A stretch of 40,399 bases of DNA from contig WGDP01000035.1 in NCBI GenBank assembly GCA_015493215.1, positions 1 to 40,399 on the forward strand. The letters are read 5' to 3'. Below, piece after piece: positions 11,376 to 28,776 of the stretch. The position numbers and the translations under genes are program-made. The stretch is from Bacteroidales bacterium. Its GTDB lineage: Bacteria; Bacteroidota; Bacteroidia; Bacteroidales; F082. The notes beneath the pieces are model-generated. The model was given only the letters and a program-made list of their open reading frames with translations. It was not told the DNA's origin and searched no databases. Positions within the stretch are counted from its first letter, which is position 1. Every line of letters begins with the position of its first letter.

Positions 11376-11395
11376 TATCAATTAAAATGTAATTG

Positions 11396-12016: not shown

Positions 12017-12028
12017 GACTCAATGTTT

Positions 12029-13228
12029 TTATTTTGAACTTTCAATCATTTCAATTTTATCGTAAATCTCTTTTACGTTGTTTTCCCAGGTATGGCTTCG
12101 AGCCAGTTTTTCGCGTGCAGCCTCTTTTTCGGGGCTATTTTCTTTTAAAGCCTTGTCAATAAGGGTAACATACTCTTCTTTGGTTTCGGCAAGGTAAACA
12201 TATCCTTCAAAAACCTCCATTGCTTTGGTTTTTGTTTGAACCGTAGGTTTTCCCATGGCAAGGTATTCGTCAATTTTACGGGGATAATTGCCGATGGTTA
12301 CCTCGTTTAGCTTTTGCGGGTTTATGGCCACATCAAAGGCGTAGAGATAGGAGGGAAGCTCTTCCATTTTTTTACTGCCGAGAAAATATACATTCTCAAG
12401 ATTATGTAACTCACTGTTTTTAAACTCGTCATCTTCGGGACCCACCAAAACAACACTCCAGTCGGGTCGCGATTGTGCTATGTGAATAATAACATCCAAA
12501 TCGAGGCGTAATGCCAACAGCGCGCCAATATATCCTATAACCGGTTTTTTAATGGGTTTAATATCCTTAGGAACCTCTTTGATAAGTTTTTTATCGAACA
12601 GCGATACATCGCATCCCTGACCCACATAATAGGAGTGTTTGTTAAATTTACGTGCCAGGTCGGCAAGATAGGTTGAGTTGGCTACCACCAAATCGGCTTT
12701 AGCCATGTGTTGTGCTTCGATACGGATTCCCTGAGTTTTCCAAAAATCTACGGCAATCATGTTGTCGCGGGTATAATATACATAGGTTTTTGGTTTGAGC
12801 AACTCGGGCAGATAAAAACTTCGGAACATATCACTGTCGTTAAAAATGATAAAATCCTTAAAGTCAAGTTCTGCAATGGCTTTTTTTATTTCGCGGGCAA
12901 AGCGCTTGTTGTTTATTTTATTTAAAATATCAAACAACCAGTTAACGGGCAGCTGACTAATGGACTCCAATTTTGTGTTGGGATAAAGATTCCACATATT
13001 GTCGTTTATTTTGACAAGATTTGGCTCTTCACCCTTCATAATTTTTATCCGCTTTTGAATTAACGGGTCATTTTTTTCTCTGATTAAAGTCAGCCTGTCC
13101 AACGGGTAATTTACGTACAACACCCTGTTATGCCTGGAAAATTCGTACGCGAGGTTGATACAGTTGCTTCCGATGCGGCTGTCGAGCGCCTGTAAACCAA
13201 CTACAATAATGTCTCGGTTTTTAATCAT
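12029..13228 (-). CDS. Glycosyltransferase family 4-like protein
   Basis: A 399-residue GT-B glycosyltransferase. The N-terminal domain opens with IIVVGLQALDSRIGSNC. The C-terminal nucleotide-sugar-binding domain contains KPVIGYIGALL, WSVVLVGPEDDEF, VYFLGSKKMEELP and a late RKIDEYLAMGKPTVQT block, where the glutamate before the G-P-turn occupies the place of the GT4 E-x7-E motif. No signal peptide or membrane helix is seen, so it acts on the cytoplasmic face, adding one sugar to the lipid-linked unit. Donor and acceptor cannot be read from the sequence. It lies 11 nt after one GT4 gene and 12 nt before the acyltransferase. Confidence 0.87.
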   Translation of the reverse strand: MIKNRDIIVVGLQALDSRIGSNCINLAYEFSRHNRVLYVNYPLDRLTLIREKNDPLIQKRIKIMKGEEPNLVKINDNMWNLYPNTKLESISQLPVNWLFDILNKINNKRFAREIKKAIAELDFKDFIIFNDSDMFRSFYLPELLKPKTYVYYTRDNMIAVDFWKTQGIRIEAQHMAKADLVVANSTYLADLARKFNKHSYYVGQGCDVSLFDKKLIKEVPKDIKPIKKPVIGYIGALLALRLDLDVIIHIAQSRPDWSVVLVGPEDDEFKNSELHNLENVYFLGSKKMEELPSYLYAFDVAINPQKLNEVTIGNYPRKIDEYLAMGKPTVQTKTKAMEVFEGYVYLAETKEEYVTLIDKALKENSPEKEAAREKLARSHTWENNVKEIYDKIEMIESSK

Positions 13229-13239
13229 AACTTTAAATT

Positions 13240-14400
13240 TTAACGGTAGTGTTTTTGGTAAACTTCATCATACAACTTCAACACATCTTTGGCCATGTTT
13301 TCCCACGAAAACTTTTGTGATTGCTTAAATCCCTTTTCAATAAGCTCATTGCGCAGTTTTTCATCCTCCATAAGGCGGATAATACCTTCGGTAATTTCTT
13401 CAGGTTTAAAGGGGTCGATTATGTAGGCGGCTTCCCCGCCTGTAATCTCAGGCATGGATGATGTGTTGGAGGTAATAACAGCTACGCCGCAGCGCATGGC
13501 TTCCAGTATGGGGATGCCAAAGCTTTCGCGCAGCGAGGGATACAAAAATATCCTGCACTGATTGTAAATGGCAGGTAAATCGGTATTTATAACATATCCT
13601 GTTAAGTGAATCCTGTCGATTAATCCGGGATCGCCAATATCAGCCAACACCTTTTTAAGCTCGTTGGCTTCGTAATCCAACATAACAAGGTACATTTCGT
13701 CGTCGTTGGTTTGTTTTAAATAGTCGGAAAACGCTTTTAAGGCACCGGGAGTATTTTTTTTGGGATCGGTATTGCCAAGAAAAAACAGAAATTTATCAGG
13801 AAGTTTGTAAAGTTTTTTAACCCTGTCAAGTTCCTTTTTATCATCAATTTTACGAAAGTGTTCACTAACACCGTTATAAACTGCAACAAGGCGTTCATCG
13901 TTTTCAGGGAAATGAAAAAACTCTTTAATGCGGTTTTTTTCAAAATCCGATACAGTAATAATTTTATCGCTCTTTTTAATTACACGCGGCACCACAAAAC
14001 GCCGGTACATGTTACCAAACTTTTGATACCATGTTCCCGATTTTTTTAGCAGCGGGTGGCTCTCCATATAAATGATGTCATGCAACGTAACAACCAGTGG
14101 CATACCCGGGTTAATGGGGGCCGTATTGCTTGTGCAATGTAAAATATGACACCCTTCCTTTTTTGCTGCCTTTGGCAAAGCCGATTGCTCCCAAACAGGG
14201 TACGGGCCTCCGTCGAGTTCAACAATTTTAACGTTTTTGGTATCCTTAAGTGCCGATTTATCGGCATCCGGCTTTACAAAAACAACATATTCGTTTTTTT
14301 TGTCCAGCTTTTGAATATAGTTGATTAACTCCAATGCAACCATATCCATTCCGTGTTTTTTCTCCCGCTGTAACCGTTGACCTTCGATAGCAATTTTCAT
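13240..14400 (-). CDS. Glycosyltransferase family 4 (retaining, GT-B)
   Basis: A 386-residue GT4 enzyme, more canonical than its neighbour. Features in order are MKIAIEGQRLQREKKHGM at the N terminus, LVVTLHDIIYMESHP, KIITVSDFEKNRIKEFF and then the donor domain with FLFFLGNTDPKKNTPGALKA. The E-x7-E-type motif follows in FLYPSLRESFGIPILEAM, and then GVAVITSNTSSMPEI. The second glutamate normally contacts the donor sugar ribose or phosphate. The product resembles mannosyl- or rhamnosyl-transferases of capsule loci, but the sugar is not predictable. It starts at ATG 14400, 33 nt after the GT2 gene's stop. It is soluble and probably membrane-associated. Confidence 0.9.
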   Translation of the reverse strand: MKIAIEGQRLQREKKHGMDMVALELINYIQKLDKKNEYVVFVKPDADKSALKDTKNVKIVELDGGPYPVWEQSALPKAAKKEGCHILHCTSNTAPINPGMPLVVTLHDIIYMESHPLLKKSGTWYQKFGNMYRRFVVPRVIKKSDKIITVSDFEKNRIKEFFHFPENDERLVAVYNGVSEHFRKIDDKKELDRVKKLYKLPDKFLFFLGNTDPKKNTPGALKAFSDYLKQTNDDEMYLVMLDYEANELKKVLADIGDPGLIDRIHLTGYVINTDLPAIYNQCRIFLYPSLRESFGIPILEAMRCGVAVITSNTSSMPEITGGEAAYIIDPFKPEEITEGIIRLMEDEKLRNELIEKGFKQSQKFSWENMAKDVLKLYDEVYQKHYR

Positions 14401-14433
14401 ACTTTTATATTTTTATAAGAAACCTGACTTCCT

Positions 14434-15642
14434 TTAATGTTTATGCTTTTTTATTTGAAATGCGTTGTAGGTATGTTTTGTGTGAATAAATTTTTTGTTT
14501 CCCTTTCTAAAACTAACAAGTGAAATCATCATCATCACAATTCCTTTGGGTAAAGTTAATACTGCTTTAAAAAAGCTAAAGTTATAAAATTTACGCGGAA
14601 TGGCAAATGCAAAAACCAAAATAATTGCTACAAACAGCGACATCCATGCGATAAGCCAGCCCAACGGATTGAATAAAAGTGAAAAAGCAGCCATAAAGGT
14701 AAGTATTGCCAGGAGCAGCACTCGCGGAAGCTGGATATAAATCATGGCACGAACAAAATATTCAAAGTTTCCTTCGGTAAACAGTGCTTTAATTGAAGGT
14801 AAGAAGTTACGTCCGAAAAAATGAAATTGTGCCGAGAGCCACCGCCTGCGCTGACGAGTGAACACCTCGGCGTTTTGTACTTTTTCGTCGTACACGTAAG
14901 TATCGGGCAAATATTCTACTTTTATGCGTCTGCGTGATAAGCGCATCTCTATTTCCTTGTCAAAACCGCCAACTACCTCAACCTCTTTCATCATGGTTTT
15001 AAACATGGCGAAGTCAAAAGCCATGGCAGAGCCTATCAGCGCCGATGAAAAGTTAAGAACCCGAAATCCCTTTCTGAAAATACTGTTGTTAATTTCTTCG
15101 CTTATTGAGTCGAGCAGGGCAAAATTGGTATTTAAATTTTTTGCCGTTCGATGCCCTTGAACAACTTTATACCCTGCTGCGAATGACTGGTTTATGGTTG
15201 TAAGGAAGTCGCTGCTCATAATGTTGTCAGCATCTAATATAACAGCGATGTCATAATTATTACTTAGGTTTTCGAAAGCATAATTGATGGCTCTCGATTT
15301 GGTACTGATTTCAAAATCTTTGGCCAAAAGCGTGATGTTATATCGCATCAGGTCGTGCAGGGTATGCGGCAAAAAATGGTCGGCCACCACCACAATTTCA
15401 AATTTATCATCCGGATAGTGCTGCTTCAAGGCACTTTCAACCACTTCAAGAATTACATTGTCTTCGCTGTAAGCCGGAATGATGAGCGCTATTTTCCGGA
15501 ATATTCCATCATCGACAAGTTTGGGATGATACGAAAAAAGACTTGCTGTTGAAAACACAAACAACACCAATACACTTGCAGCTATGTAAAGAAAAAATAC
15601 AAGTTGAATAATTTCCAATATGTCGGTTAAAAGATTCATCAT
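14434..15642 (-). CDS. Membrane glycosyltransferase family 2 with QxxRW motif (copy B of cassette)
   Basis: A 402-residue integral-membrane GT2. One N-terminal helix (about 12-35) leads to the catalytic domain (IALIIPAYSEDNVILEVVE, DAD at 137-139, GHRTAKNLNT, QRRRW at 264-268). Two or three membrane helices follow (about 305-385). The QxxRW motif is characteristic of processive enzymes such as cellulose and hyaluronan synthases, although some single-addition GT2s have it too. It resembles the product of 16586-17809 over its full length, with identical stretches such as QGHRTAKNLNT. Two adjacent ATG codons (15642, 15639) are possible starts. The first overlaps the upstream stop as ATGA, so translation is coupled. 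Confidence 0.9.
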   Translation of the reverse strand: MMNLLTDILEIIQLVFFLYIAASVLVLFVFSTASLFSYHPKLVDDGIFRKIALIIPAYSEDNVILEVVESALKQHYPDDKFEIVVVADHFLPHTLHDLMRYNITLLAKDFEISTKSRAINYAFENLSNNYDIAVILDADNIMSSDFLTTINQSFAAGYKVVQGHRTAKNLNTNFALLDSISEEINNSIFRKGFRVLNFSSALIGSAMAFDFAMFKTMMKEVEVVGGFDKEIEMRLSRRRIKVEYLPDTYVYDEKVQNAEVFTRQRRRWLSAQFHFFGRNFLPSIKALFTEGNFEYFVRAMIYIQLPRVLLLAILTFMAAFSLLFNPLGWLIAWMSLFVAIILVFAFAIPRKFYNFSFFKAVLTLPKGIVMMMISLVSFRKGNKKFIHTKHTYNAFQIKKHKH

Positions 15643-16568
15643 AACATTGGGTTTTCGTGAATTTCATCATCATACAAGTGGTTGATATTCCACAATATAG
15701 CCTTATAATAGGCCATAAATACAGCTATTTTTCCTTTTAACAGGTATTTAAAAGCATTTTTAGGAATGGCCACAAACAGTTGGTAAAAAATGCCAAGGTA
15801 AAAGTTTCTTCCCTCGTAGTTCCGCCGCATAAATACCAGCCGGTTTCTGTTAAGGTAGTATATTTTTAAAGCACTGAGTTTGCCCGTTGTTACCGATTCT
15901 TTATGTAAAACCGACGATTTTCCGTTATAGTATATTTTGTAACCCGATTTGATGATTCGGGCACACCAGTCGGCTTCTTCGTAGTACAGAAAAAAGGTGT
16001 ACGACATCAACCCGACATCTTTTATAACTCGCATGGGAACCATTAATGCGGCACCATGACCGTAGGCGGTTTCGCGAATATCATCATATTTTCCGTTATC
16101 CTTTTCCATATACCCGATGGCAAAATTCCGCATGGTAACCGGATTAATGGGAGTATATCCTGCGTACTGAATGGTATCGGAGCGATAGAAATATTTTATT
16201 TTAGGGCTGACGGCACCAATTTCCGGGTTTTTTTCCAGTAGGTCAACCAGTGGCTCTAAAAAATTTTTTGGAACTTCAATGTCGTTGTTGAGCAAAAGCA
16301 CATAATCGCCTTTGGCCGCCATAATACCGAAATTGTTTCCGGCAGCAAACCCGTAGTTTATGGGGTTTTCGATAAATTTTATCTGCGGATACTCCTTTTT
16401 TATAATGGAAGGGTCATCTTCAACCGAATGGTTATCAACAACAATAACTTCAACATTGGGATAGGTAATCTGTTTCAACGATTCAAGCAACTCGCAGGTA
16501 ACCCTTGCCTGGTTGTAGTTTACCGTTATGATGGAAACCAAAGGATATCGGTTGAAAGTATAGGCCAT
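15639..16568 (-). CDS. Glycosyltransferase family 2, rhamnosyltransferase-like (copy B of cassette)
   Basis: A 309-residue inverting GT2 with a GT-A fold. The start YPLVSIITVNYNQARVTCELL, the donor motif VVDNHS, NYGFAAGNNFG and the metal-binding LLNNDIEVP (Asp96) are all present. FFLYYEEADWCARI provides the likely catalytic acidic region. Most similar enzymes transfer rhamnose or related deoxyhexoses (WbbL-like), but specificity cannot be assigned. It resembles the 310-residue product of 17812-18744 across its length. A C-terminal amphipathic stretch may hold it at the membrane. Its TGA stop overlaps the start of the next GT2. Confidence 0.9.
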   Translation of the reverse strand: MAYTFNRYPLVSIITVNYNQARVTCELLESLKQITYPNVEVIVVDNHSVEDDPSIIKKEYPQIKFIENPINYGFAAGNNFGIMAAKGDYVLLLNNDIEVPKNFLEPLVDLLEKNPEIGAVSPKIKYFYRSDTIQYAGYTPINPVTMRNFAIGYMEKDNGKYDDIRETAYGHGAALMVPMRVIKDVGLMSYTFFLYYEEADWCARIIKSGYKIYYNGKSSVLHKESVTTGKLSALKIYYLNRNRLVFMRRNYEGRNFYLGIFYQLFVAIPKNAFKYLLKGKIAVFMAYYKAILWNINHLYDDEIHENPML

Positions 16569-16585
16569 CTTTAAACATTAAAGTA

Positions 16586-17809
16586 TTAATTATGTTTTAT
16601 GCTATCGGTGTGAGAGTGGGTGGTGTGAATAAATTTTTTGCTTGCACCTTTTATTTTTAATAAGCTCAGCAGCATTAATACAAATCCCGTGGGAATATAA
16701 AGCATAGCTTTAAAAGTTTTTTTGTTGTAAAATCTTCGCGGTATGGAAATGAATAAAGTAAAGGTAGTTACAGCAAATAGTAGCAGCCAATACCGTGAAC
16801 TAAAGTAATAGAGGCCGGATGCCAGGCCGGGGAAAAAAATTTCGAAAAGCCATAAAACCGCAGTAATAATAAACAAAACCCCAACCAATAAAATTCGGGG
16901 AGGCTGCACCATTTGAAGTACTTTGTCAAAATAATCCACATTGCCTTTAAACAGAAACTGTTTTAAACCGTCGAAAAAATATTCTTTAAAGTAGCTAAGC
17001 TGGGCTGCAATCCATCGCCGGCGCTGGTTTACAAACACATCTGACTTTTGTGTTTTTTCATCAAAAATAAGGGCATCGTTTACATATTCTATTTTTACGC
17101 CGTTTTTAATTATTTTCAACTCAACTTCTTTGTCTTCTCCCACCGAATCAACCGTAGCCATGGTTGATTTAAACAGATGATAATCAATACCCATACCGGA
17201 ACCTATAAGTGCTGACGACATACCCAAAACCCGGTGTCCTTTACGGAAAATATGATTGTTTATCTCCTCACTCATGGCATCCAGAATAGCTACGCTGGTG
17301 TTTAGGTTTTTGGCAGTACGATGTCCCTGAACGGCAACAAAGCCACGGTCAAAAGCTTCGTTAATTTTTGACAAAACATCGGGTTTCATCACGTTGTCGG
17401 CATCCAAAACAAAGGCTACATCGTAGTCATCTCCTATCTCCTCCATGCACTTATTAAGTGCTTTCGACTTTTTACTTACCTCAAACACAACCTCCACCAC
17501 AGTAATGGGAAGTTTGCGAAGTGCATCAAGGGTTGATTTTTTAAAAGAATCGGCAATAACAATCACTTCATACTTATCCTTGGGATAGTCTTGTTTTACA
17601 GCCTCTTCGGCAACATGAATAATGACTTCGTCCTCTTTATAGCCGGGAATTAGCACGGCAAATTTTCGCTGATTCGAGATTGTTTTAGCATGTTTCTGCC
17701 GGTAAAAAAGTCCAAACACGGCATATATAAAAATATAAAGGGTTGCTAAAGCAAAGTAGAGATAAAAAACACCTTCCAAAACAGAAATTACAAAATATAA
17801 AGTACTCAT
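16586..17809 (-). CDS. Membrane glycosyltransferase family 2 with QxxRW motif (copy A of cassette)
   Basis: A 407-residue GT2 with the same architecture as the protein from 14434-15642. An N-terminal helix (about 10-35) precedes a catalytic domain with FAVLIPGYKEDEVIIHVAEE, DAD at 136-138, AVQGHRTAKNLNT and QRRRW at 262-266. Two or three C-terminal helices follow (about 305-375). Both proteins end in a basic tail with KKFIHT, supporting a common origin. It starts 2 nt after the preceding GT2 stop. Whether it is processive, making a homopolymer stretch, or adds one sugar cannot be told. Confidence 0.9.
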   Translation of the reverse strand: MSTLYFVISVLEGVFYLYFALATLYIFIYAVFGLFYRQKHAKTISNQRKFAVLIPGYKEDEVIIHVAEEAVKQDYPKDKYEVIVIADSFKKSTLDALRKLPITVVEVVFEVSKKSKALNKCMEEIGDDYDVAFVLDADNVMKPDVLSKINEAFDRGFVAVQGHRTAKNLNTSVAILDAMSEEINNHIFRKGHRVLGMSSALIGSGMGIDYHLFKSTMATVDSVGEDKEVELKIIKNGVKIEYVNDALIFDEKTQKSDVFVNQRRRWIAAQLSYFKEYFFDGLKQFLFKGNVDYFDKVLQMVQPPRILLVGVLFIITAVLWLFEIFFPGLASGLYYFSSRYWLLLFAVTTFTLFISIPRRFYNKKTFKAMLYIPTGFVLMLLSLLKIKGASKKFIHTTHSHTDSIKHN

Positions 17810-17811
17810 AA

Positions 17812-18744
17812 CTAATTCTTTTTAAGTTTGGGTAACGAAAACAAACCTTTGTGATGTGTAAAATGCCACCATCCAGCCCGCAATACGGCACGAGCCAAAT
17901 CAAACCGCCCTTTTGCGGCATAACTTAAAGCAGTTTTGGGCAGCGCGAGAAGGTTCATATATAAAAAGCTTAACAGTTTATTTATTCCTGTTGAATTTCG
18001 GCGTGCATATAAAATGCGGCCTCGGGTAAGGTAAAAAATTTGAAAGGGGCTGTCCTTAACCGTTGAAATGGATTCTTTGTGAAGTACGAGCGACTTCCCC
18101 TGATAGTAGATTTTATAACCGGCTTTTTTGATGTGTTCGGCCCAGTCGTGCTCTTCGTAGTACAGAAAAAACACCTCTGTCATGGTGCCTACCTCCTCAA
18201 TAACTTTGTAAGGCACCAACATGGCAGCACCAAAAATCGATCCTGTTTCGCAGGTCATATCGTATTGTCCATGGTCGGTTTCGCCAAATCCAATGGCAAA
18301 ATTCCTGATGGTAATTGGGTTTATGGGTGTAAAGCCTGCAAACTGAAAAGTGTTGGGGGTGTGAAAGTAGTGTATTTTAGGGCTTACCATTCCTATAGTG
18401 CTGTCGCTTTCAAGCAGTTCAACCATGGGTTCCAAAAAGCCCGGTTCAACTTCGGTATCGTTGTTAATAAATAAAATATATTTACCTTTTGCCGGAGGAA
18501 TTGCTACGTTGTTACCACCTGCAAAACCAAGATTCTTTTCGGTTTTAATATAATGAATGTAAGGGTAACGCTCTTTAATTATATCAGGGTTATCGTTTGG
18601 TGAAGCATTGTCAACCACAAAAATCTCGATGTTGGGATAGGATATTTTTTTTATGGAATCTAAAAACTCACAAGTAACTTTCGATTGATTATAATTTACC
18701 GTAATCAATGACACCAAAGGCAAACTTTTACTTTTTGATTTCAT
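17812..18744 (-). CDS. Glycosyltransferase family 2, rhamnosyltransferase-like (copy A of cassette)
   Basis: A 310-residue GT-A enzyme, the paralogue of the 15639-16568 product. It carries LPLVSLITVNYNQSKVTCEF, VVDNAS, NLGFAGGNN, the metal-binding FINNDTEVE (Asp96), SPKIHYFHTPNTFQFAGF and FFLYYEEHDWAEHI. It transfers a nucleotide-activated sugar to the growing lipid-linked unit on the inner leaflet. It is the first glycosyltransferase of the operon in transcription order, 20 nt after the polymerase/ligase gene. The order soluble GT2 then membrane GT2 is repeated in the second cassette. Confidence 0.9.
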   Translation of the reverse strand: MKSKSKSLPLVSLITVNYNQSKVTCEFLDSIKKISYPNIEIFVVDNASPNDNPDIIKERYPYIHYIKTEKNLGFAGGNNVAIPPAKGKYILFINNDTEVEPGFLEPMVELLESDSTIGMVSPKIHYFHTPNTFQFAGFTPINPITIRNFAIGFGETDHGQYDMTCETGSIFGAAMLVPYKVIEEVGTMTEVFFLYYEEHDWAEHIKKAGYKIYYQGKSLVLHKESISTVKDSPFQIFYLTRGRILYARRNSTGINKLLSFLYMNLLALPKTALSYAAKGRFDLARAVLRAGWWHFTHHKGLFSLPKLKKN

Positions 18745-18764: not shown

Positions 18765-20273
18765 TTAATCTTTAACCTTTAATGCCCAGGGACTCATACC
18801 TCTTTTAACAAGATCGGTATATTCTCTGTCTAACTGAGGAGCCATAAACAGAAATGCCCAGCTTAAATAAATTAGCATACCGGTAGGCATCTGACCCAAC
18901 ACACCATTACCGTAACTTGCACCTGCGATGCCTACAAATCCGGCTAACAAAGCCCCGAGCACTCCGTTGAGTTCTTCGTTTTTAACTATAAAAAGCAGAT
19001 AAAAAAAGCTTTTAAACATGATGTATGAAAGGATAAAAAGGTGAAGGATTAAGCCAACCCGTCCCTGTTCAGCCCAAATCTGTACATACCATGAGTCGGT
19101 TGCCACGTTAGCCAGAAAACCCTGTGGCGAAAACCGTTTACCCCAGTCGCCGGCAGCACCAATACCACCGCCAAAAGGTTTGTCGGCAAGATAGGCTTTT
19201 AAAATTCGCCGGTTTTCAAGACGCACGAGGTATGAAGCATCTTTTTCAGGCCTGAAAGCGGTTCGCATACGTCGAATTTGCGAATTACTTTGCCCAATCA
19301 TTGTATAGGCAAAAAAGATGTAGGTAAGAGCGAGGAGAATGCTGCCGCTTACAATAACCTTTACATTTTTTCGTAAGACAATATAAACGACTCCTCCAAG
19401 CATCGGCACAATCATAGCACCTCGCGTACCCGAAAGGAACATACCCCAAATTCCCAAAATCCCCATGATATAAAAGAATATTTTATTTGCTCTTCCTTTT
19501 ATTGCCGAGGCGAGAAGAATGCCCACAATACCGGCAGCAGCCTGCGAAGCACCAAACTGACCGGCATCGGAAAAGAAGGAGAATACCCTCAGTTCTCCAA
19601 AAATAATGTGGGTAACGGCACCTCCCTGGTCGAGCCAAAGTTGTTCTGCCGAGTCAACTCCTATATATTTCTGTTTTAGACCGTTAAGGGTTGCCAAAAT
19701 GGTAAATATCCCCCAAATGTATAAAAAGGTATATAGATACCTTAGGCGGTTAAATAGCAGAAAAGCCAGAGGAATAACCAAAAGCGGATAAAGCGACATA
19801 CCACGCATGGCATAAAACCAGGCTGTTCTGCTCAAAGCCAACGGGTTAACAAGCTCAAGCAAGGCGTAAGCAAACCATAGCATCATTAAATAAGTTAGGT
19901 CGCGGTTAACCTCTCTCCATTTTATTCCCTTGTTAAACTGGTTAAAAAAAAGGGCAATGTAAGTCATTACCAACATGCCGTCAATTGAAAGGCCCAACGG
20001 CACACCCCGAATATACCTTGTTAAACCAATGGCTGTAAAACCAAGTACCATTAGCGTGTAAATGCCAATCACCGGATAATTAAACAGACGGTTAAAAAAG
20101 TATATTACAGGCAAAGCAACTATTAAGGCCACTGCCACTTTCATGCCACCCTTGGCAATGATTATGCCCAACAAAAACGTCATCAACAAAACGGCTAAAA
20201 TCATTAACGGATGCTGTAGCTTGTCAGCACCGGTTTTTGATTTAAATGAATCGATGATGGGTTGTAACTTCAC
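18765..20273 (-). CDS. O-antigen polymerase/ligase-family membrane protein (Wzy/WaaL-like)
   Basis: A 502-residue polytopic membrane protein with roughly 11-13 helices. A large periplasmic loop before the last helices contains NRRILKAYLADKPFGGGIGAAG, the signature of the Wzy_C/O-antigen ligase family, including the FGGGIG turn and a following W. Between the Wzx-like and glycosyltransferase genes it most likely polymerises repeat units in the periplasm. A ligase role is possible, because the two families share this domain. The start is GTG at 20273 (reads MKLQPIIDSF). No upstream ATG exists, and the next internal ATG would remove the N-terminal cytoplasmic stretch. Confidence 0.87.
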   Translation of the reverse strand: MKLQPIIDSFKSKTGADKLQHPLMILAVLLMTFLLGIIIAKGGMKVAVALIVALPVIYFFNRLFNYPVIGIYTLMVLGFTAIGLTRYIRGVPLGLSIDGMLVMTYIALFFNQFNKGIKWREVNRDLTYLMMLWFAYALLELVNPLALSRTAWFYAMRGMSLYPLLVIPLAFLLFNRLRYLYTFLYIWGIFTILATLNGLKQKYIGVDSAEQLWLDQGGAVTHIIFGELRVFSFFSDAGQFGASQAAAGIVGILLASAIKGRANKIFFYIMGILGIWGMFLSGTRGAMIVPMLGGVVYIVLRKNVKVIVSGSILLALTYIFFAYTMIGQSNSQIRRMRTAFRPEKDASYLVRLENRRILKAYLADKPFGGGIGAAGDWGKRFSPQGFLANVATDSWYVQIWAEQGRVGLILHLFILSYIMFKSFFYLLFIVKNEELNGVLGALLAGFVGIAGASYGNGVLGQMPTGMLIYLSWAFLFMAPQLDREYTDLVKRGMSPWALKVKD

Positions 20274-20305: not shown

Positions 20306-21730
20306 TTAACGATTTTTTAGCTTAAAATAGAAATCTTTAAAAAACAAAAGCCCTTCGGTAAATATTTTTTTAAATTCCAAATCTATAGCATCATCCAAGT
20401 ATTTGAACCCCACATAAATACCAAGCAGCGTGAAAGAAATGGTAACCGCTGCTACCAGCTCAAGGGATGTTAATGTGGAGTAAGTAATCATCGAATGCCA
20501 AAAGGAAGAGCCGGTAACACCAAACGAAACAAGTTTAATGGAGGCAAAAATGGCAACGAAATAGTAAAAACCGAAGACCACCAGGCTGTCGCCAATTAAG
20601 TTGGCAGCAGCCATATAAACCACCTTAATAAAGTTTTGTTTCGGACAGTTTACCGCATCAAGAGCAACCCCTGTAAACCTGTCGAGGGGTAGAAGCATGC
20701 CATAAACACAAAATATCCTGAACACATTAGCCGTAATGGCATACTGTTCACCTCCAATTAAGGTAACAAAGTCCTCAGCAAAAAAGAACGAAAAAATCAT
20801 AACAGGAACAATCAACAGGGTAAGGCCTCCCGAGTTACGATAGTATGACCTTTTAACATCTTCCACCCGGCCTTCTATACTGGCTTTCGACATCTCCGGA
20901 AAGGCGGTCATGGCAAAACTGCGTAAGGGTATCTCAATAATTTCAGTTAGTTTCATCGGAATACTGTAAAAAGCTACTCCAACCGTGCCAAGAAACGGAC
21001 TTAACCCTATAATAAAGGTATCGGCACTTTTTAGCAGGTTACTCCCAATCAGGGTTCCGGTGGTATATTTTCCAAAATCAAGAATCACCTTGCTGTCTTT
21101 TCGGGTAGCTTTAAAAACATATTTTATTCCATCCCAATTTAATATGGATGCAAAAATCGATGATGCCGCATTAATAATAACATAAGCAATCATTATCACC
21201 ACCACATCTGATTTAAAGAAAATCATGTTAACAAGAAGGTAAAGCATAAATCCCCCAACCGTAATCATTCTAAGTAATAAAATTAAATCAAACCTTAGTT
21301 TGGCTTGTAAAACCGAGAAAGCATTGTTAAACGGTAGCGTAACAAAAGCAACGATAGGGAACCATTGAAAAAAGAGATAGTAACCGGAGTTGTCAATACT
21401 TTCTTTTGCAAGAAAATAGATAAGATAGGTAACTACAGCCAAAAGCGCAGTGGAGAGCAGGTTGATGATGTAATTTGAACCAATCAGGCGCTTACCTTCC
21501 TCTTCGTTTGCTCCCGACAAAAAGCGTACAATAGCTGTTCGGGTAATGCCAAACCGAAGCATATCCAGAAAGTTAGTTGCCGTAAGGAAAAGTACCCAGG
21601 CACCATAATCCATGGTGGGCAAACTCCTCACCAGAATCATAAAACCAAGTAAACCGAATACCGCAATCAGCCCATTATTGGCTAATGAAAGCACATTGTT
21701 GCTTTTCAGTATTTTAGACAATGAAACCAT
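20306..21730 (-). CDS. Polysaccharide flippase (Wzx/MATE-like, MOP superfamily)
   Basis: A 474-residue membrane protein with about 12-14 predicted helices and the layout of Wzx/RfbX-type flippases. N-terminal features are GLIAVFGLLGFMILVRSLP, MDYGAWVLFLTATNFLDMLR and FGITRTAIVRFLSG. A central basic stretch is followed by FYSIPMKLTEIIEIPLRSFA, where conserved MOP flippases carry a YSIP-type motif. It would move the undecaprenyl-linked repeat unit to the periplasmic leaflet. It starts 5 nt after the Wzc-like gene's stop, so the two are co-translated. The substrate is the product of the downstream glycosyltransferases. Confidence 0.92.
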   Translation of the reverse strand: MVSLSKILKSNNVLSLANNGLIAVFGLLGFMILVRSLPTMDYGAWVLFLTATNFLDMLRFGITRTAIVRFLSGANEEEGKRLIGSNYIINLLSTALLAVVTYLIYFLAKESIDNSGYYLFFQWFPIVAFVTLPFNNAFSVLQAKLRFDLILLLRMITVGGFMLYLLVNMIFFKSDVVVIMIAYVIINAASSIFASILNWDGIKYVFKATRKDSKVILDFGKYTTGTLIGSNLLKSADTFIIGLSPFLGTVGVAFYSIPMKLTEIIEIPLRSFAMTAFPEMSKASIEGRVEDVKRSYYRNSGGLTLLIVPVMIFSFFFAEDFVTLIGGEQYAITANVFRIFCVYGMLLPLDRFTGVALDAVNCPKQNFIKVVYMAAANLIGDSLVVFGFYYFVAIFASIKLVSFGVTGSSFWHSMITYSTLTSLELVAAVTISFTLLGIYVGFKYLDDAIDLEFKKIFTEGLLFFKDFYFKLKNR

Positions 21731-21735
21731 AGGTT

Positions 21736-24699
21736 TTATGCCTCTTTTTTGAACGAAAATTTATACTTTAACGGGTAGCTTATAATTTGCTTAACTTTAA
21801 TAATATAATGCTTACTGTTTCGCTTTTTAGGCAGGTTCGATAAAAGTTCTTCCAAGGCATACAATTCTACTTTATTTAATATAACCTGAGGTTTAACCGG
21901 ACAAATTTCCCTAAAGGTATCAATGGCTCTTTTGTCAGCTTTGGTCATTCGACTGTTGGCTTTAAGTACATAAAAAGCAAAGTCAACCTGCTGTAATAAA
22001 CCAATAGGGTAGGTATTAAAAATAATGGACGGTATTTCGAGGAAGATATAACTGTAGCTACTATTGTTTTTTCTAAGAGCTTTTTCTTCAATCAACTCGC
22101 TAAAGTCTTTGATATCAATAAAATTATCTTTAATCTTATAGGAGTACGAGAAGTTGTAATCGTCTTCATCGACCGGTTCATCATCAAAACGATAATTAAG
22201 GTATAGCACACTATCACCAATTTCTCTTAGCCGGTTAACAATTTTATGGCCTAACAACGATTTTCCGGTCTCGTTTTGCGTACTAAACATCAAAACAACT
22301 TTTGGTTCCTTTTCCAGTGTGTTTAAACCCATTTTTAGGTTTTGGATGATCATATCAATTAATCTGCGGGCAAAAGCATTTAATTCCTGAGTACTGTTTC
22401 CGGTATTTAAAATAGGATAGGCACCGGCAAGTTCCATTTCAGTTTCTTTAATAACCCTGCTTGGGTTTTTCATTGAATTGTCAAAATATTCCAATGCCAA
22501 AATAATAAAAGCAATCATAACAAAGCCAAATAAAAAGGCTGCTACAATTAACACTTTAGCTTTTGAAGGCATGGCGGAGATAGGGAAGTAGGGTGGGTCA
22601 ACAATCTTGATATTGGTAGCCATTTCAAGATTTTGCTGTTTCATTTTAGCGAGGTTAAGGCTGTGCAACAACTCCAGATAGGATTGCTCGGTTACTTTAA
22701 TTTCGCGTTCAATTCGTTTTAACATAGCACCCAGAGGAGCATACTTCTGGTAGGTTCTTACAAAATCCATTTTACGTCGTGCCAATACAACAAGTGCTGC
22801 TTTGGCTTCCACATAATTTATGGTGTTTTTTAACCATTCGTTTAGCATGTTTGTAATGGGCAAACCCTGTGTTGAGTGCGAGTACAAATAAAGCTGATCG
22901 ACATAGAGCTTTATTTTATTTCGCAATTCGGTTTGTCGTGCTCTTAATTTTGCAATGGCTTGAGCCGTACGCTCGTCGTAATCAGCTGTAGGCTCGTTTG
23001 AAATGATTTTAGTAGTAACCTCAGCCAGCTCTTTTTTAAGCTGGTTTACTTCATCACTTTTAAGGTACAGGCTGTCTCTTGCAGTAAGATGTGTTTCTAT
23101 TTCGTTGAGCGATGCACCCGAACCGGATAACCTAATCTGTTCGTTTTGGTAAGCTACTTCGAGGTCTTCCTTTTGAGCGGCAATGGCTTTACTTTGCTCG
23201 TAGTAGTTTATAATGTTATTTTTCTTGTTGAATTGTAACAAGCGGTCTTCTGCTTTTTGCAGACGGCTGTCGGCCAGGCGTACCTGCTCTTCAAAATATT
23301 TTACAACGAGGTCGGTTTCGTTTTCTCTCAACAGTTTATAGTTTTTCATAAACACCTGCGAAAGAATTTTTAGCGTTTGCATACAAATACCCGGGTCATC
23401 CGAATGAAAAGTCAGCTTTACAAGGTCGGAATTATTAATCCGGTAGATTTGAATTTCACTAATTGACCGTATGCTGTAATGGTTGTTTTCGCCATAATGT
23501 AAAAGGCCATAAATAAAATTGGTATCGCTTGAAGAGTAAAACTTGGTAAGATTTTTTACCGTTTTTTCATAATCTGATTTTTTAACACCCGGAGGCACAA
23601 TGGGATCGCTTACAAAGTAATCTTTTTCTAAAACCTTGGATTCAAAATCGGTGGTAGGCTCTGGAACATTGGGAAGTTCGTCATACACTCCCTGGTCGTT
23701 TAAACTTTTGTTGCTTTGATGCGGGGAGGAGCTACCTGATATATTGTCGTCGGAGAGCACCTCTTTTTTACTTCCCGTATAATAATTAGCTGCTCTTGAT
23801 TTGTAGCCACGGTCGATTAAAATACGTTGTCCGGGTGTAAGCGACCGGTTTGAAAGGTTGTTAAGCTCACGAAGTTTACTAATGTTAACTCCGTATTTTT
23901 TAGCTATTGAATAGAGCGTTTCACCTCTTTTAACTGTGTGATAAACAGGACTTGAGGCGCTATTTAGTTTTTGTACTATAATAGATTGTCCCTGTGAAAC
24001 ACTGTTGGGGTCGGAGATGTCATTCATATCTAAAATCTCGCCCATGGATAAGCCATATTGCGAGGCTACCTGCGCCAGCGTTTCTCCCGGAGCCATCACA
24101 TGATATACATACTCAGCACTTTTATCAGCTGATGCTCCTACATTTTTTGATACACCACTACTACTATGAACCTGTTTTACTGTTGTTCCCTGAGGAGATT
24201 CGTTTAAGACTTTGTTTTTCTTTTTCGATATTTCTCTTTCCAGCGACCGTATTTCCTTTTGCAATTTTTTAACAGCTTCCTCACGCTTGCGCATAACACC
24301 TGTTTTGTTGTTTTTTACAACCAAATCTTTAATATACTCAGGTGTAAACGATTGAAGTTGATTATAGTTTTTATCGGATATATACTGAGGTATCGGCTTT
24401 TCCAAACAAAGATCCTGTGCCAGCAATCTGATGGATGTTTCAACGATTGTCTGGCGCGATTTAAGTAAATTCAAAAGGTTGTCGAACTGGGCGCTAACAC
24501 TAAAGTAGTCGGTAGGCCGCTGTGAGGTTGACTCAATGGAATAACCAGTGGTAATCCCGGTATAAATAACTGTTTCCGACTCATAGGCCTTGGGTTTGTT
24601 ACGTGTAAAATAATACACCACCACAGCTAACAACAGCGGTACTACTATCAGTAATAGTAAATTTCTTTTAAAGAGTTGTATAAAATGACCTATATCCAT
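21736..24699 (-). CDS. Wzz/Wzc-like polysaccharide co-polymerase with two LysM domains and degenerate kinase domain
   Basis: A 987-residue protein. A first helix (13-31) and second helix (715-737) enclose a very long periplasmic region. In it are two LysM modules, about 198-243 (YHVMAPGETLAQVASQYGL) and 252-295 (YHTVKRGETLYSIAKKYGV), each ending in P/SxGQxIxV/I, then long coiled-coil helices (about 455-700) typical of Wzz/GumC proteins. The cytoplasmic end (about 755-960) resembles a BY-kinase/ParA ATPase. It keeps TGKS at 811-814, but the Walker A' aspartates are replaced (VLYLNYR) and no tyrosine cluster is seen at the tail. Family proteins set chain length and connect synthesis to export. 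LysM binds peptidoglycan, which suggests wall anchoring (inference). It lies 13 nt after the TolC-like gene. Confidence 0.9.
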   Translation of the reverse strand: MDIGHFIQLFKRNLLLLIVVPLLLAVVVYYFTRNKPKAYESETVIYTGITTGYSIESTSQRPTDYFSVSAQFDNLLNLLKSRQTIVETSIRLLAQDLCLEKPIPQYISDKNYNQLQSFTPEYIKDLVVKNNKTGVMRKREEAVKKLQKEIRSLEREISKKKNKVLNESPQGTTVKQVHSSSGVSKNVGASADKSAEYVYHVMAPGETLAQVASQYGLSMGEILDMNDISDPNSVSQGQSIIVQKLNSASSPVYHTVKRGETLYSIAKKYGVNISKLRELNNLSNRSLTPGQRILIDRGYKSRAANYYTGSKKEVLSDDNISGSSSPHQSNKSLNDQGVYDELPNVPEPTTDFESKVLEKDYFVSDPIVPPGVKKSDYEKTVKNLTKFYSSSDTNFIYGLLHYGENNHYSIRSISEIQIYRINNSDLVKLTFHSDDPGICMQTLKILSQVFMKNYKLLRENETDLVVKYFEEQVRLADSRLQKAEDRLLQFNKKNNIINYYEQSKAIAAQKEDLEVAYQNEQIRLSGSGASLNEIETHLTARDSLYLKSDEVNQLKKELAEVTTKIISNEPTADYDERTAQAIAKLRARQTELRNKIKLYVDQLYLYSHSTQGLPITNMLNEWLKNTINYVEAKAALVVLARRKMDFVRTYQKYAPLGAMLKRIEREIKVTEQSYLELLHSLNLAKMKQQNLEMATNIKIVDPPYFPISAMPSKAKVLIVAAFLFGFVMIAFIILALEYFDNSMKNPSRVIKETEMELAGAYPILNTGNSTQELNAFARRLIDMIIQNLKMGLNTLEKEPKVVLMFSTQNETGKSLLGHKIVNRLREIGDSVLYLNYRFDDEPVDEDDYNFSYSYKIKDNFIDIKDFSELIEEKALRKNNSSYSYIFLEIPSIIFNTYPIGLLQQVDFAFYVLKANSRMTKADKRAIDTFREICPVKPQVILNKVELYALEELLSNLPKKRNSKHYIIKVKQIISYPLKYKFSFKKEA

Positions 24700-24712
24700 C
24701 TATTAACAATAA

Positions 24713-25531
24713 TTATCTCAACACATTAATGAGGTTAAACCTCATGCCCGTAACAACTTCGAGCATTTGGTAGTTTTTATTAAATTCCGAAACAGCCTGT
24801 TGAAAATTAACGGAGCCTCTGGTTTGAATTTCTTTTAAACGGGCATATTCGGCAGTTGTAATTTCGCCATTTAAAAACTCATTTTGAGCCATTTGCATCT
24901 GCATCATGGTAAAATTCTCGTAATCCTCGTATATCCTTATATATTTTTGATATTGAACCATATCGTTGTATATTCTGATAACCTCCTTAACCAAAAATCG
25001 TTTGTTAATTTCTTTTTGGGTTAACGAAATTTCCTGCCATTTTTTTTGCTTATTAATTCTGTTTCTTCTATCCACAAAGGTGGCCAATGGAAAGCGAATG
25101 TAAAATCCCACGGCATAATTATCGCGAATGGAACCTGACCAGTAATACCGGTCAATTTTATTAATTTCGTCTTTATCCCAAAAATCCCAGTTTCCAAAGT
25201 TTGCATCAAAGTTGAGACTGAAGTGTTCGAGCCATGCTCTTTGAGCCGAAAGTTGTTCGTAATAGTAGTATTGAGCCTTTAAATCTTCGTATTGAAGGCT
25301 TGGAGAGTTGTGCGAAGCCGAATCGATCAAAACACGTAATGGTGGTATTTTTTGCCTGATATCATCAACAAGGGGGTTGAATAATTTTGTACTGTCGATA
25401 GCAAGACTATTGGTTGTACCACTTTGTGCATTAACATTATAGGGGCTAATGGCAGCAATTGTAATCAGCCAAAAAATAACTGAAAACAGATTGGTTTTAT
25501 TTGTTGTATTAAAAATTATTTTTACCTTCAT
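24713..25531 (-). CDS. Short TolC-like outer membrane protein
   Basis: A 272-residue exported protein with an N-terminal signal (about 1-36, ending NVNA-Q). The mature part is alpha-helical and looks like an outer-membrane efflux (TolC/OEP) protein: LRVLIDSASHNSPSL is the typical start, FYIRFPLATFVDRR the beta strand, and MVQYQKYIRIYEDYENFTM plus FLNGEITTAEYARLKE the helical parts. Full TolC proteins have about 420-480 residues and two repeats; this has about one half. It may work as an oligomer of half-units or act as a periplasmic accessory. It probably assists export of the polysaccharide. A 116-nt spacer (25532-25647), in which I see no gene or clear promoter, separates it from the sugar transferase. 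Confidence 0.8.
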   Translation of the reverse strand: MKVKIIFNTTNKTNLFSVIFWLITIAAISPYNVNAQSGTTNSLAIDSTKLFNPLVDDIRQKIPPLRVLIDSASHNSPSLQYEDLKAQYYYYEQLSAQRAWLEHFSLNFDANFGNWDFWDKDEINKIDRYYWSGSIRDNYAVGFYIRFPLATFVDRRNRINKQKKWQEISLTQKEINKRFLVKEVIRIYNDMVQYQKYIRIYEDYENFTMMQMQMAQNEFLNGEITTAEYARLKEIQTRGSVNFQQAVSEFNKNYQMLEVVTGMRFNLINVLR

Positions 25532-25647: not shown

Positions 25648-26847
25648 TTAAACATTCTCTTTTTGCAAAAGGGCAGGAATTGTACGCAGTATTAACTTTA
25701 TATCTCCCCAAAAAGAGTAGTTTTTTGAATATTCATTATCAAGCGATTTTCTTTCCTCTTCCGACATTTCTCCTTTTTTACTGCGCAGCTCAACCTGCCA
25801 AAGTCCTGTTATGCCGGCAGGCCCCATAAATCGGGCACTCCAGTCATCGGAAGTCAGCAGTTCCGCTTCGTAGAGTGGGAGGGGGCGGTTGCCTACAATA
25901 GACATGTCGCCTTTGAGTACGTTAAACAATTGCGGCAATTCATCAATGCTGGTATTTCTGATAAATTTACCGACTTTTGTAATTCGCGGGTCGTCTTTAA
26001 TTTTAATAAAGGTTGAACCGGCCATTCCTTTTTTCTGTTCCTTATACCAATATTCACAAATATATTTTCCGTCAATAAATAGCAGGGGAGAGCAGTGTTG
26101 TCCTTCGGGCAGCTCTTTACAGCGTGGGCAATCGGTATTTAATTCCTGCGAATTTTCTTCGTTTTCAGCTTCTTTTTTTGCAGCGTTGTACTTATTCAGG
26201 TGCTCCAGGTCCTTTAATTTGGCATCGGCACCGGTGTACATCGACCTAAACTTGTAGAAATCAAATATTTTGTATCCGGTACCAACTCTTTTTGATTTAT
26301 AAATTATGGAACCTTTTGATTCCAAACGGATTGCAATGGCTACTAAAATAAAAACAGGTGATAAAAGCAAAATTGCTGTTAGTGAAACAATGATGTCAAA
26401 GGTTCTTTTTACAAATGGAATCTTATAACGTTGAAAAACTCCTGTTACCTCCTTTTTATTTCGGTATTTATCGTAATAATCTTTTAAAAAGGTTAACCGT
26501 TTGTGTAGTTTTTTTACATCAATGGGAACAGAATAGTAATCGTCAACAACGCCTTTTGCTTTCAACAATTTTTTAAAAAGGCCAAAATCTTTTTGCAATG
26601 AAAAAATTACGAAAGGTGTTGTAGCATAGTTGGCATATCCTTTTACCATTTTTGCAATGGAAAGGCCGTTCATACCGGGTAAAACTGCCTCGCATAGGAT
26701 AGCATCAAATTTTTCTCCTTTTTTTAGCAAAAGATTTTGGGTTTGTACGCCGTTTTCAACTGTAGTTACCTTAAATAACTCACTGTTTTCTTTTAATTCG
26801 TTCACTAAATCAGGCCAACTACCGATGTACAGTAAATTTATTGCCAT
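25648..26847 (-). CDS. Pseudo-receiver fused to undecaprenyl-phosphate sugar transferase
   Basis: A 399-residue fusion. Residues 1-122 form a receiver-like domain with FDAILCEAVLPGMNG and VIFS, but the phosphate-accepting aspartate is Glu53, the conserved lysine is Val107, and the acidic pair near the N terminus is missing. After a linker, residues 147-399 form a bacterial sugar transferase (WcaJ/PglC type): a membrane helix or hairpin at 152-173, KFRSM, a catalytic Asp302-Glu303 in RNTSIDELPQLFN, SIVGNRPLP, GITGLWQV. An insert of about 45 residues holds Cys240, Cys243, Cys252 and Cys264 (C-x2-C-x8-C-x11-C). It would transfer a sugar-1-phosphate to undecaprenyl phosphate, starting the repeat unit. 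It is 15 nt after the receiver gene. Confidence 0.9.
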   Translation of the reverse strand: MAINLLYIGSWPDLVNELKENSELFKVTTVENGVQTQNLLLKKGEKFDAILCEAVLPGMNGLSIAKMVKGYANYATTPFVIFSLQKDFGLFKKLLKAKGVVDDYYSVPIDVKKLHKRLTFLKDYYDKYRNKKEVTGVFQRYKIPFVKRTFDIIVSLTAILLLSPVFILVAIAIRLESKGSIIYKSKRVGTGYKIFDFYKFRSMYTGADAKLKDLEHLNKYNAAKKEAENEENSQELNTDCPRCKELPEGQHCSPLLFIDGKYICEYWYKEQKKGMAGSTFIKIKDDPRITKVGKFIRNTSIDELPQLFNVLKGDMSIVGNRPLPLYEAELLTSDDWSARFMGPAGITGLWQVELRSKKGEMSEEERKSLDNEYSKNYSFWGDIKLILRTIPALLQKENV

Positions 26848-26862: not shown

Positions 26863-27237
26863 TTATGAAATACGTGCCAGAATATTTTTAATGCGAAGGT
26901 AAAGCTCTTCAGGATTAAAAGGTTTGACGATGTAGTCATCGGCACCAAGACGCAAGCTTTTGATACGTTCTTTGCTACTTTCGTTTCCCGAAAGCATGAT
27001 GATGGGGATGTGGTTAAAAAAACCGCTTGCTTTTGCATTTTCCAAAAATTCGTAGCCATCCATATTGGGCATTTGTATGTCAGCCACAATAAGATCGGGC
27101 AGGTTTCCCTCCTCAAGAAATTTAATCCCTTCAAGGCCATCATTTTTTGTAATTACATCAAACTCCTTTCCGAGGAAGTTTTCTAAAAGCATTCTGATGC
27201 TTTGCTCATCGTCAATAATAAGTATGGTTCTTTTCAT
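26863..27237 (-). CDS. Single-domain response regulator (CheY-like receiver)
   Basis: A 124-residue stand-alone receiver with every active-site residue: Asp9 and Asp10 (LIIDDEQ), phospho-acceptor Asp53 (LIVADIQMP), Ser83 (MLSGN) and Lys105 (DYIVKPFNP). There is no output domain, so it acts by protein-protein contact or as a phosphorelay intermediate. It is the first gene of the exopolysaccharide operon and is followed after 15 nt by the pseudo-receiver/sugar-transferase fusion. The hybrid histidine kinase just upstream is the likely phosphoryl donor (inference from position). A consensus promoter lies about 35 nt before its ATG. Confidence 0.95.
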   Translation of the reverse strand: MKRTILIIDDEQSIRMLLENFLGKEFDVITKNDGLEGIKFLEEGNLPDLIVADIQMPNMDGYEFLENAKASGFFNHIPIIMLSGNESSKERIKSLRLGADDYIVKPFNPEELYLRIKNILARIS

Positions 27238-27360: not shown

Positions 27361-28617
27361 TCAGGCAGGATTTAGTTGCGTTGACGGATCAAGATTACTT
27401 AAAAGTACCGAAAACTTATCGACGTTAAAAGGTTTATTTATAAAAAAGTTGATGCCCGCCTCGTTGAGTTTAGCGATGTTATTTTTATCGGAATTGGCTG
27501 AAACGGCAATAATGGTGGCCGGCTTTTTTAAAGGGTTCAGCTTTTCATATTCTCTAATCAACCTGGCTGACTCATATCCATCCATTACCGGCATTTGTAT
27601 ATCCATTAAAACCAAATCGTAATTGTTTTGTCGGTATTTGTCAACACCTATTTTTCCGTTTGATGCCGTATCAACATTAAAGCCCTGCCTGTCGAGTATT
27701 GCTTTAGTAAGTTTTTGATTAATGATGTTGTCTTCAACCAAAAGAATGTTTTTATAAAGCTCTTTGTTATCGGAAACTCCCAGTTCAAGGGGAATGGTGA
27801 TGGAAAAAGTGCTCCCGATATCTTTTTTGGAGTCAACAACAATTTTACCTTTCATCAAATCTACCAAATCTTTTGCCAGCGATAAGCCGATGCCGATACC
27901 GGTATTTAACGATGTATCGGTTCTTGAAAATGAAAACATTTGCCAGATTTTTTCCTTTTGAATTTCATCAATGCCAAATCCGGTGTCGGAAACAATAATA
28001 TCAATATCAAATGTTTTATAATCAATATTGTACCCGTTTATGGTAACGCTTATTTTTCCCTTATCAGTGTATTTTAAAGAGTTTGACAGTAACTGATGGA
28101 TAACTTGTTTTATTCGCGTTGGATCACCTTTTAAATATTTAGGAATATTATGCCCGTATTTAACAATAAATTCCAACTCTTTCTCTTCGGCTTTGTTTTT
28201 GTAAAAATCCAAGAGAGGTTGCAATTCCGATTTTAAATTAAAGTTAACATAATTGAGTTTTATGGTTCCGTTTTCCAGATTATAAAAATCAAGAAGGTCG
28301 TTTAATGTAGTCATTAAATATTGGCTGTTTTGCTCAATAATGTTGACATTGTATAAGTCCTCGTTGTTAAGATTTTTACTGTTTTTAAGTAAAGAAACCG
28401 AATTGAGAATACCGTAAAATGGGGTTTTTATTTCGTGGCTAATATTACCTGATAACTGCTTGTTGGTTTTAATAGTGTTGTTATATGCATTTTCCAGTGA
28501 CTGGTGCTTTTCTTGGAGTTTGCTAAACTCCTCTGAAAGTTCGCGATAACTTTTTAGAAGTTCGCTATTGCTGGCTTCAGGCTTATTTGCAGTTTTCGAT
28601 TTTAAGATGTATTTCAT
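27361..28617 (-). CDS. Cytoplasmic hybrid histidine kinase (HisKA-HATPase-REC)
   Basis: A 418-residue protein with no membrane helix and no sensory domain. A coiled coil (about 18-55) precedes the HisKA box SGNISHEIKTPFYG with phospho-histidine His61. Next come the ATPase N box (Asn179 in HQLLSNSLKYT), G1 (Asp211 in VSDTGFGID) and G2 (TGIGIGLSLAKDLV). A C-terminal receiver (about 289-408) has Asp339 (LVLMDIQMP) and Lys395 (INKPFN). In the family, phosphate passes from His to the attached Asp and on to an Hpt protein, or the receiver controls the kinase. The start is ATG at 28617; a GTG at 28647 would add ten residues. It precedes the receiver/exopolysaccharide operon by 123 nt on the same strand. 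Confidence 0.93.
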   Translation of the reverse strand: MKYILKSKTANKPEASNSELLKSYRELSEEFSKLQEKHQSLENAYNNTIKTNKQLSGNISHEIKTPFYGILNSVSLLKNSKNLNNEDLYNVNIIEQNSQYLMTTLNDLLDFYNLENGTIKLNYVNFNLKSELQPLLDFYKNKAEEKELEFIVKYGHNIPKYLKGDPTRIKQVIHQLLSNSLKYTDKGKISVTINGYNIDYKTFDIDIIVSDTGFGIDEIQKEKIWQMFSFSRTDTSLNTGIGIGLSLAKDLVDLMKGKIVVDSKKDIGSTFSITIPLELGVSDNKELYKNILLVEDNIINQKLTKAILDRQGFNVDTASNGKIGVDKYRQNNYDLVLMDIQMPVMDGYESARLIREYEKLNPLKKPATIIAVSANSDKNNIAKLNEAGINFFINKPFNVDKFSVLLSNLDPSTQLNPA

Positions 28618-28776
28618 ATTAGCACATTTCTCCGGAATGTATTCCACCCGGATAAACTTGTTTTATATCAAAAATTAAACCAAATGGAATAAATAAAAAT
28701 ATATAAAACATAATCAGCATGTTATAAATTAATTAGAGTATAAAAAAATCTCAATATTGGAAAAAACTTCTCTAAT

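Follow-up and report, generated by a model that had tools for sequence, protein, structure and literature searches.

A response regulator gene and a transferase-fused pseudo-receiver form a conserved pair in Bacteroidota that may control the first step of polysaccharide synthesis

The window analysed here is a 40,399-nucleotide stretch of DNA from a Bacteroidales bacterium (assembly GCA_015493215.1, contig WGDP01000035.1), in which a run of genes on the reverse strand is, judging by the domains of the predicted products, a Wzx/Wzy-type polysaccharide cluster. In the direction of transcription, a hybrid histidine kinase with HisKA, HATPase_c and receiver domains (Pfam; 27361–28647, with a GTG start and a possible ATG start at 28617), which is a candidate phospho-donor, is followed by a 124-amino-acid single-domain response regulator (26863–27237; Pfam Response_reg, E = 1.6e-27) and, after a gap of 15 bases, by the start of a 399-amino-acid initiating sugar transferase (25648–26847). 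Further along the same strand lie genes for an outer-membrane efflux-type protein (24713–25531; Pfam OEP, 2.8e-12), a polysaccharide co-polymerase-like protein with two LysM stretches (21736–24699; Pfam GNVR and Wzz, both below their cut-offs), a Wzx-type flippase (20306–21730; Polysacc_synt), a Wzy/WaaL-type protein (18765–20273; Wzy_C) and a group of glycosyltransferases, acetyltransferase-like proteins and FkbM methyltransferase-like proteins (10569–18744; Pfam for 17812–18744 and NCBIfam for the remainder, most of it under the cut-offs). To our knowledge, LysM stretches are unusual in proteins of the co-polymerase type. A scan of the window for promoters and terminators returned 14 promoters, with 15.0 expected.

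The earlier note, made from the letters of this DNA, had read residues 1–122 of the transferase as a response-regulator receiver with Glu53 in place of the phospho-acceptor and Val107 in place of the switch Lys. Both residues were confirmed in the window, and the domain itself was borne out by domain search, structure prediction and fold comparison. Response_reg matched residues 17–118 just under its cut-off in a Pfam search with the whole protein (E = 7e-7; 29.8 bits, cut-off 30.2) and above it when the N-terminal 132 amino acids were searched alone (E = 6e-8; 33.3 bits). An AlphaFold2 model of the fused enzyme, built from a 64-sequence alignment, had a mean pLDDT of 86.9, with block means of 90–98 over residues 1–120, and placed strands and helices in the (βα)5 order of receivers (3–8/12–20, 25–30/33–42, 49–53/61–69, 79–83/88–96 and 103–106/111–130). 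Foldseek matched this part of the model to receivers in the PDB (for example, VicR 8fk2, TMt 0.83). The earlier note would have given up its reading had a structural model lacked a receiver fold, and the fold is present. We refer to residues 1–130 (26458–26847), whose conservation was assessed in 172 relatives, as the pseudo-receiver. A single long helix (145–176) lies between it and the catalytic fold.

The catalytic domain spans residues 147–394 (25666–26409; Pfam Bac_transf, E = 8.8e-59) and is present in 64 of the 64 members of the fused-family alignment; the best PDB match to this part of the model is PglC (8e37, TMt 0.83). Its Asp302-Glu303 dyad (25939–25944), which we take to be the catalytic pair of small monotopic phosphoglycosyl transferases, is kept in all 125 relatives compared. 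Small monotopic enzymes have one re-entrant membrane helix and no four-helix bundle, and the predicted model likewise contains one long, putatively re-entrant helix and no such bundle. We assign the fused enzyme, from its sequence and model, to the small monotopic phosphoglycosyl transferases (PF02397), with putative transfer of a sugar phosphate to undecaprenyl phosphate. Column comparison across the 125 relatives also revealed a Cys-rich insert inside the catalytic domain (26056–26130; C240, C243, C252 and C264, arranged as CPxC...C...C), all four residues of which occur in 70 relatives, with zero Cys at those columns in the other 55; it is possibly a metal site. An identity with Porphyromonas gingivalis WbaP was rejected, that protein being of the large type by its length (498 amino acids in the available part of PMC4560394) and not a member of the fused family.

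In the model, Glu53 (codon 26689–26691) is the final residue of β3 and Val107 (26527–26529) occupies the position of the receiver Lys. The acid pair that follows β1 is also gone, being replaced by Gly9-Ser10, a point absent from the earlier note, and the window domain thereby has none of the acid pair, Asp and Lys of a phosphorylatable receiver. Across the domains of 172 fused transferases with a regulator encoded upstream, an acidic residue 10, Asp53 and Lys107 occur together in none; Lys107 is found in 11 and Gly at position 9 in 145. Position 53 is occupied by Glu in 113 of these domains, Asp in 23, Gln in 11, Asn in 7, Tyr in 6, Ser in 4, Ala in 3, His in 2, and Lys, Thr and Gly in 1 each, so the window domain and 149 of its 172 relatives are aspartate-less receivers, and Glu accounts for 113 of those 149. 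The picture is similar among 125 unique fused proteins (Glu 88, Asp 11, Gln 9, Asn 5, Tyr 4, Ser 3, Ala 2, His 2 and Thr 1). By majority share, column 53 ranks 6th of 128 in conservation in the 125 proteins and 12th of 128 in the 172 domains, and a quick catalytic-domain tree requires 16 changes between Glu and another residue. The window's own genome has 75 receiver-family matches; in 46 receiver hits from 30 loci, some domains being counted twice where loci overlap, the acceptor is Asp in 42, Thr in 2, a gap in 1 and Glu in 1, the last being the window's pseudo-receiver. A receiver domain with Glu53 is unusual within this genome and is no chance match. The two Thr acceptors belong to what is, by sequence, one protein, in the overlapping loci L284 and L302 (G000:C187).

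The earlier note had suggested that Glu53 may mimic permanent phosphorylation and held that free variation of position 53 across a wide family would count against this. Glu proved strongly preferred but not fixed, and the remainder of the active site speaks against the simple form of the idea. A constitutive, phosphate-independent mimic would keep the transferase active at all times, for instance through homodimer formation. Glu is indeed the commonest residue at position 53, and the Asp103 and Arg117 described below would suit a homodimer too; according to the available text of PMC4395418, replacement of Asp by Glu activates some regulators, often only in combination with other changes, and Glu is found in 26% of Asp-less receivers generally, a smaller share than the 113 of 149 seen here. 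However, the acid pair and Lys are lost, and 59 of the 172 domains have a residue other than Glu at position 53, with the domain and the upstream gene still kept and with Asp103 retained in 52 of the 59. A permanently active enzyme would also leave the near-constant upstream regulator without a reason. Because the acid pair and Lys are lost and Glu is so often replaced, the simple phospho-mimic reading is weak, even with Glu favoured at this position, and we consider an enzyme locked on by Glu53 improbable.

Searches of overlapping sets of genomes (41 from the window's own organism and relatives, 295 and 393 from its order, 173 from its family and 392 from the phylum) and a scan of named genomes, from which the best 80 loci were kept, showed that the fusion recurs over several orders of Bacteroidota, yet is far from universal. 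By record title it occurs in Bacteroides, Prevotella, Pedobacter, Mucilaginibacter, Flavobacterium, Dyadobacter, Hymenobacter, Sediminibacterium and others, genera that we take to fall in the Bacteroidales, Sphingobacteriales, Flavobacteriales, Cytophagales and Chitinophagales. A whole-protein model applied at E = 1e-60 found matches in 47 of the 392 sampled phylum genomes, receiver-less enzymes included, and the fused form is present in 51 of the 173 family genomes. Among the best 80 loci, a receiver was not detected in the seven that were outside Bacteroidota by title or unplaced (L159–L165). Pfam recognizes the receiver in only 21 of the 64 alignment members (E = 0.01); as the domain thus escapes it in the majority of those checked, annotation tends to hide the fusion.

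The regulator encoded upstream has the active site that the pseudo-receiver lacks: its acid pair, Asp53 and Lys105 are intact. To assess how regularly the two genes occur together, we used 173 unique fused genes that had been gathered by transferase sequence, not by regulator, and that each had at least 350 bp of upstream DNA. A single-domain regulator lay directly upstream on the same strand in 171 of them, the weakest match having E = 2.2e-9 and five being weaker than 1e-20. Asp53 is present in 169 and Lys105 in all of 172 upstream regulators, and 165 have the complete set including the acid pair; among the other seven, three look incomplete (L012, L051 and L140) and two carry Glu at position 53 (L190 and L259). 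Of the two exceptions, L064 has no regulator in 1,467 bp of upstream DNA, and L172 has none directly upstream, where the frame, inspected by eye, resembles the C terminus of a histidine kinase. L194, in which just 87 residues precede the catalytic domain and which has no upstream regulator, was left out of the 173, and L040, L041 and L212 have less than 350 bp upstream and no regulator within it. L065, L155, L194 and the second half of L104 stand outside all count classes; L065 and L155 do have an upstream regulator. That the fused gene nearly always follows a gene for a working regulator suggests that the regulator attaches to the enzyme and thereby controls it.

Transferases lacking the receiver served as controls. 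Intact receiver-less paralogues from the window's family had a regulator upstream in none of 19 cases (20 were fetched, and the fragmentary L239 was set aside). Across all lineages, receiver-less small transferases had one in 8 of 38, or 7 of 37 without L083, a fused gene broken by stops that is counted as receiver-less in the former figure, and other transferases in 1 of 24, or 0 of 23 without L104, a frame-split fused gene counted among the 24. The seven receiver-less small transferases, from other lineages, with a regulator directly upstream (L139, L151, L152, L184, L185, L188 and L189) represent the pair without the fusion, and they show that the regulator can occur, and may act, without the pseudo-receiver. 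Within the 173 family genomes, the regulator, called at E of at most 1e-28 and in a single copy per genome, is found in exactly the 51 that have the fused enzyme; in one of these (G711) the two lie on separate contigs, where adjacency is not visible. Five family genomes with the paralogue only had no regulator at E = 1e-28. As linked genes are co-inherited, the matching 51 genomes point to a dedicated pair and cannot be counted as 51 independent cases. On the catalytic tree, the state lacking both receiver and regulator requires three changes, a count from a quick tree that carries long-branch warnings and gives no direction. Many genomes of the family contain both the fused enzyme and a receiver-less paralogue; the window's genome is one with a second, receiver-less transferase (L002, G000:C236:7339–8085), which is 54% identical and has no regulator upstream.

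The two genes might instead be co-inherited operon members only, with the regulator acting elsewhere (on other proteins, or as a phosphate sink) and the pseudo-receiver binding, for example, the kinase or the co-polymerase. The hybrid kinase does adjoin the pair in the window. Yet, of 48 loci that had 4.5 kb of upstream DNA, only 7 have a similar kinase on the same strand in that stretch, within the reach of a single phmmer query, so that in most species examined the regulator would be driven from elsewhere in the genome. Immediate adjacency of the two genes also persists where the remaining cluster differs: of 54 scanned loci, 44 have a protein related to the Wzz-like, Wzx or Wzy protein of the window nearby, as expected of polysaccharide clusters, and the other 10 have none. 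The family's receiver-less paralogues, 19 of 19 without a regulator, argue in the same direction. Co-inheritance by itself thus seems unlikely to us, although the covariation and distance correlations described below, which did not single out the pseudo-receiver as the regulator's partner, leave it some room. Earlier, the pseudo-receiver had been proposed to be a docking module for the kinase, for the intact receiver made by the preceding gene or for itself. The upstream position of that receiver in 171 of 173 fused genes and its distribution over the same 51 of 173 genomes favour it as the partner, and the kinase is unlikely as a general direct partner.

Next, we considered which surface could mediate such a contact. 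With positions numbered from the conserved Lys, residues 103 (codon 26539–26541) and 117 (26497–26499) of the pseudo-receiver correspond to Asp101 and Arg115 of PhoB, a pair at its dimer face; charge reversal of Arg115 impairs PhoB and reversal of Asp101 partly rescues it (PMC4511772, available text). The best-conserved position of the 172 pseudo-receivers is Asp103 (155), followed by Gly9 and, third, Arg117 (136 Arg and 16 Lys), and Asp103 occurs together with Arg or Lys at 117 in 147. The 172 upstream regulators keep, in PhoB numbering, Asp101 in 160, Arg/Lys115 in 150, Arg/Lys91 in 162 and Glu111 in 162; the 91/111 pair, the other pair of the dimer face, is lost in the pseudo-receivers. Retention of Asp103 and Arg117 with the active site lost suggests that the dimer face of the pseudo-receiver outlasted its active site, although the two residues could instead be conserved for folding.

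Paired covariation gave no clear interface. Mean-field DCA between regulator and pseudo-receiver over 171 pairs (Neff 133; L051, L091 and L266 left out) yielded a top inter-protein z of 5.0, compared with 5.3 for the top signal within the pseudo-receiver, and no face stood out. Partial distance correlation of the regulator with the pseudo-receiver versus the catalytic domain gave r = 0.52 versus 0.45 over all pairs and 0.42 versus 0.51 over closer pairs only. When a pseudo-receiver profile was compared with receivers of the window's own genome (those in 30 loci, out of 75 matches), the adjacent regulator scored best after the domain itself, at 79.5 bits, and the next at 66.1; in this one genome and its 30 loci, the ranking fits an origin by regulator duplication and fusion.

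Alternatively, the pseudo-receiver might be a structural remnant, serving merely to stabilize or dimerize the enzyme and having no part in signalling. It has diverged widely, with a mean identity of 0.24 among pseudo-receivers versus 0.60 for the catalytic domain, and the close paralogues do exist without it. Against this, a strongly diverged Bacteroides fragilis member (L127) retains the receiver fold in its model, with the CheY-like domains of TadZ as the closest match, Asp103 and Arg117 are among the three most conserved positions, and 171 of 173 fused genes have the regulator. We therefore find a purely structural role hard to credit.

Our preferred reading, to which we assign a probability of roughly 0.6, is a two-gene phospho-switch: once phosphorylated, the regulator would dock onto the pseudo-receiver and so govern the reaction that starts the polysaccharide. 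A histidine kinase would phosphorylate the single-domain regulator (26863–27237) at Asp53; the α4-β5-α5 face of the phosphorylated regulator would then pair with the pseudo-receiver of the transferase (25648–26847), and this pairing would control the first sugar-phosphate transfer to undecaprenyl phosphate, most likely by activating or positioning the enzyme. The pseudo-receiver, itself unphosphorylated, would be the fixed half of a receiver heterodimer and probably descends from a duplicate of the regulator. From the computed folds of the two proteins, the residues lost and kept, and the gene pairing with its controls, we infer that phosphorylation and binding occur, which face is used, the direction of the effect and the origin of the domain. 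The regulator pairing makes it likely, as had been suggested earlier, that the first step is controlled by protein contact. The wider proposition, that Bacteroidota including Bacteroides and Prevotella use a dedicated receiver/pseudo-receiver heterodimer to switch this step, that it arose by regulator duplication and fusion, and that regulator and domain come and go together in the window's family, seems to us evenly balanced.

Known systems resemble parts of this arrangement. In Streptomyces, BldM and WhiI form a regulator heterodimer in which one partner has a degenerate receiver, with DNA binding as the output and both partners free-standing; the window pair likewise combines a regulator with a degenerate receiver but differs in that the partner is fused to an enzyme. 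Among the Asp-less receivers described in the available text of PMC4395418, such as ChxR with Glu, the receiver fold likewise lacks the phospho-Asp and Glu is the commonest replacement, but 70% have a basic residue where the Lys would be and 65% retain the first acid residue, whereas the window family has Lys in 11 of 172 and Gly9 in 145 of 172, and its output is a membrane enzyme. The closest functional likeness is in Myxococcus xanthus, where, according to the accessible part of PMC12802240, proximity labelling points to contact between the phosphorylated form of EpsW and the initiating transferase, EpsZ, co-expression of EpsW stimulates EpsZ, and an EpsW/EpsZ complex has been modelled. There, as we infer here, a phosphorylatable single-domain regulator from a polysaccharide locus controls an initiating monotopic transferase, and the window, too, encodes such a regulator beside the enzyme. 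As described in that text, EpsZ is a large transferase with a transmembrane bundle and a cytoplasmic DUF, whereas the window enzyme is of the small type with its own pseudo-receiver, and not a large transferase lacking the DUF β-hairpin; unlike epsW and epsZ, moreover, the regulator and transferase genes lie side by side in many Bacteroidota. Receiver-containing small monotopic transferases, which share the fusion seen here, were noted in the survey of O'Toole et al. 2021 (PNAS), as cited in PMC12802240. Within the parts of these sources available, then, both the receiver fusion to small transferases and regulator control of an initiating transferase are already in print, and the pairing described here is a variant. 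In the open-licence literature, chiefly at the level of titles and abstracts, we found no report of the Bacteroidota regulator/transferase pair, and terms for receiver or regulator do not occur in PMC12550135.

Little is settled about how bacteria decide which polysaccharide receives their undecaprenyl phosphate, and we found one experimental example of a response regulator directly controlling the initiating enzyme (PMC12802240, accessible part). A conserved two-gene module in Bacteroidota would open this question to experiment in species of the gut and the environment and would give a clear role to a receiver incapable of phosphorylation. Finally, in 13 loci from Prevotella and relatives (L120, L121, L124, L125, L130–L133, L135, L137, L138, L144 and L158), the regulators are 98% identical on average (95% at least) and the pseudo-receivers 66%.
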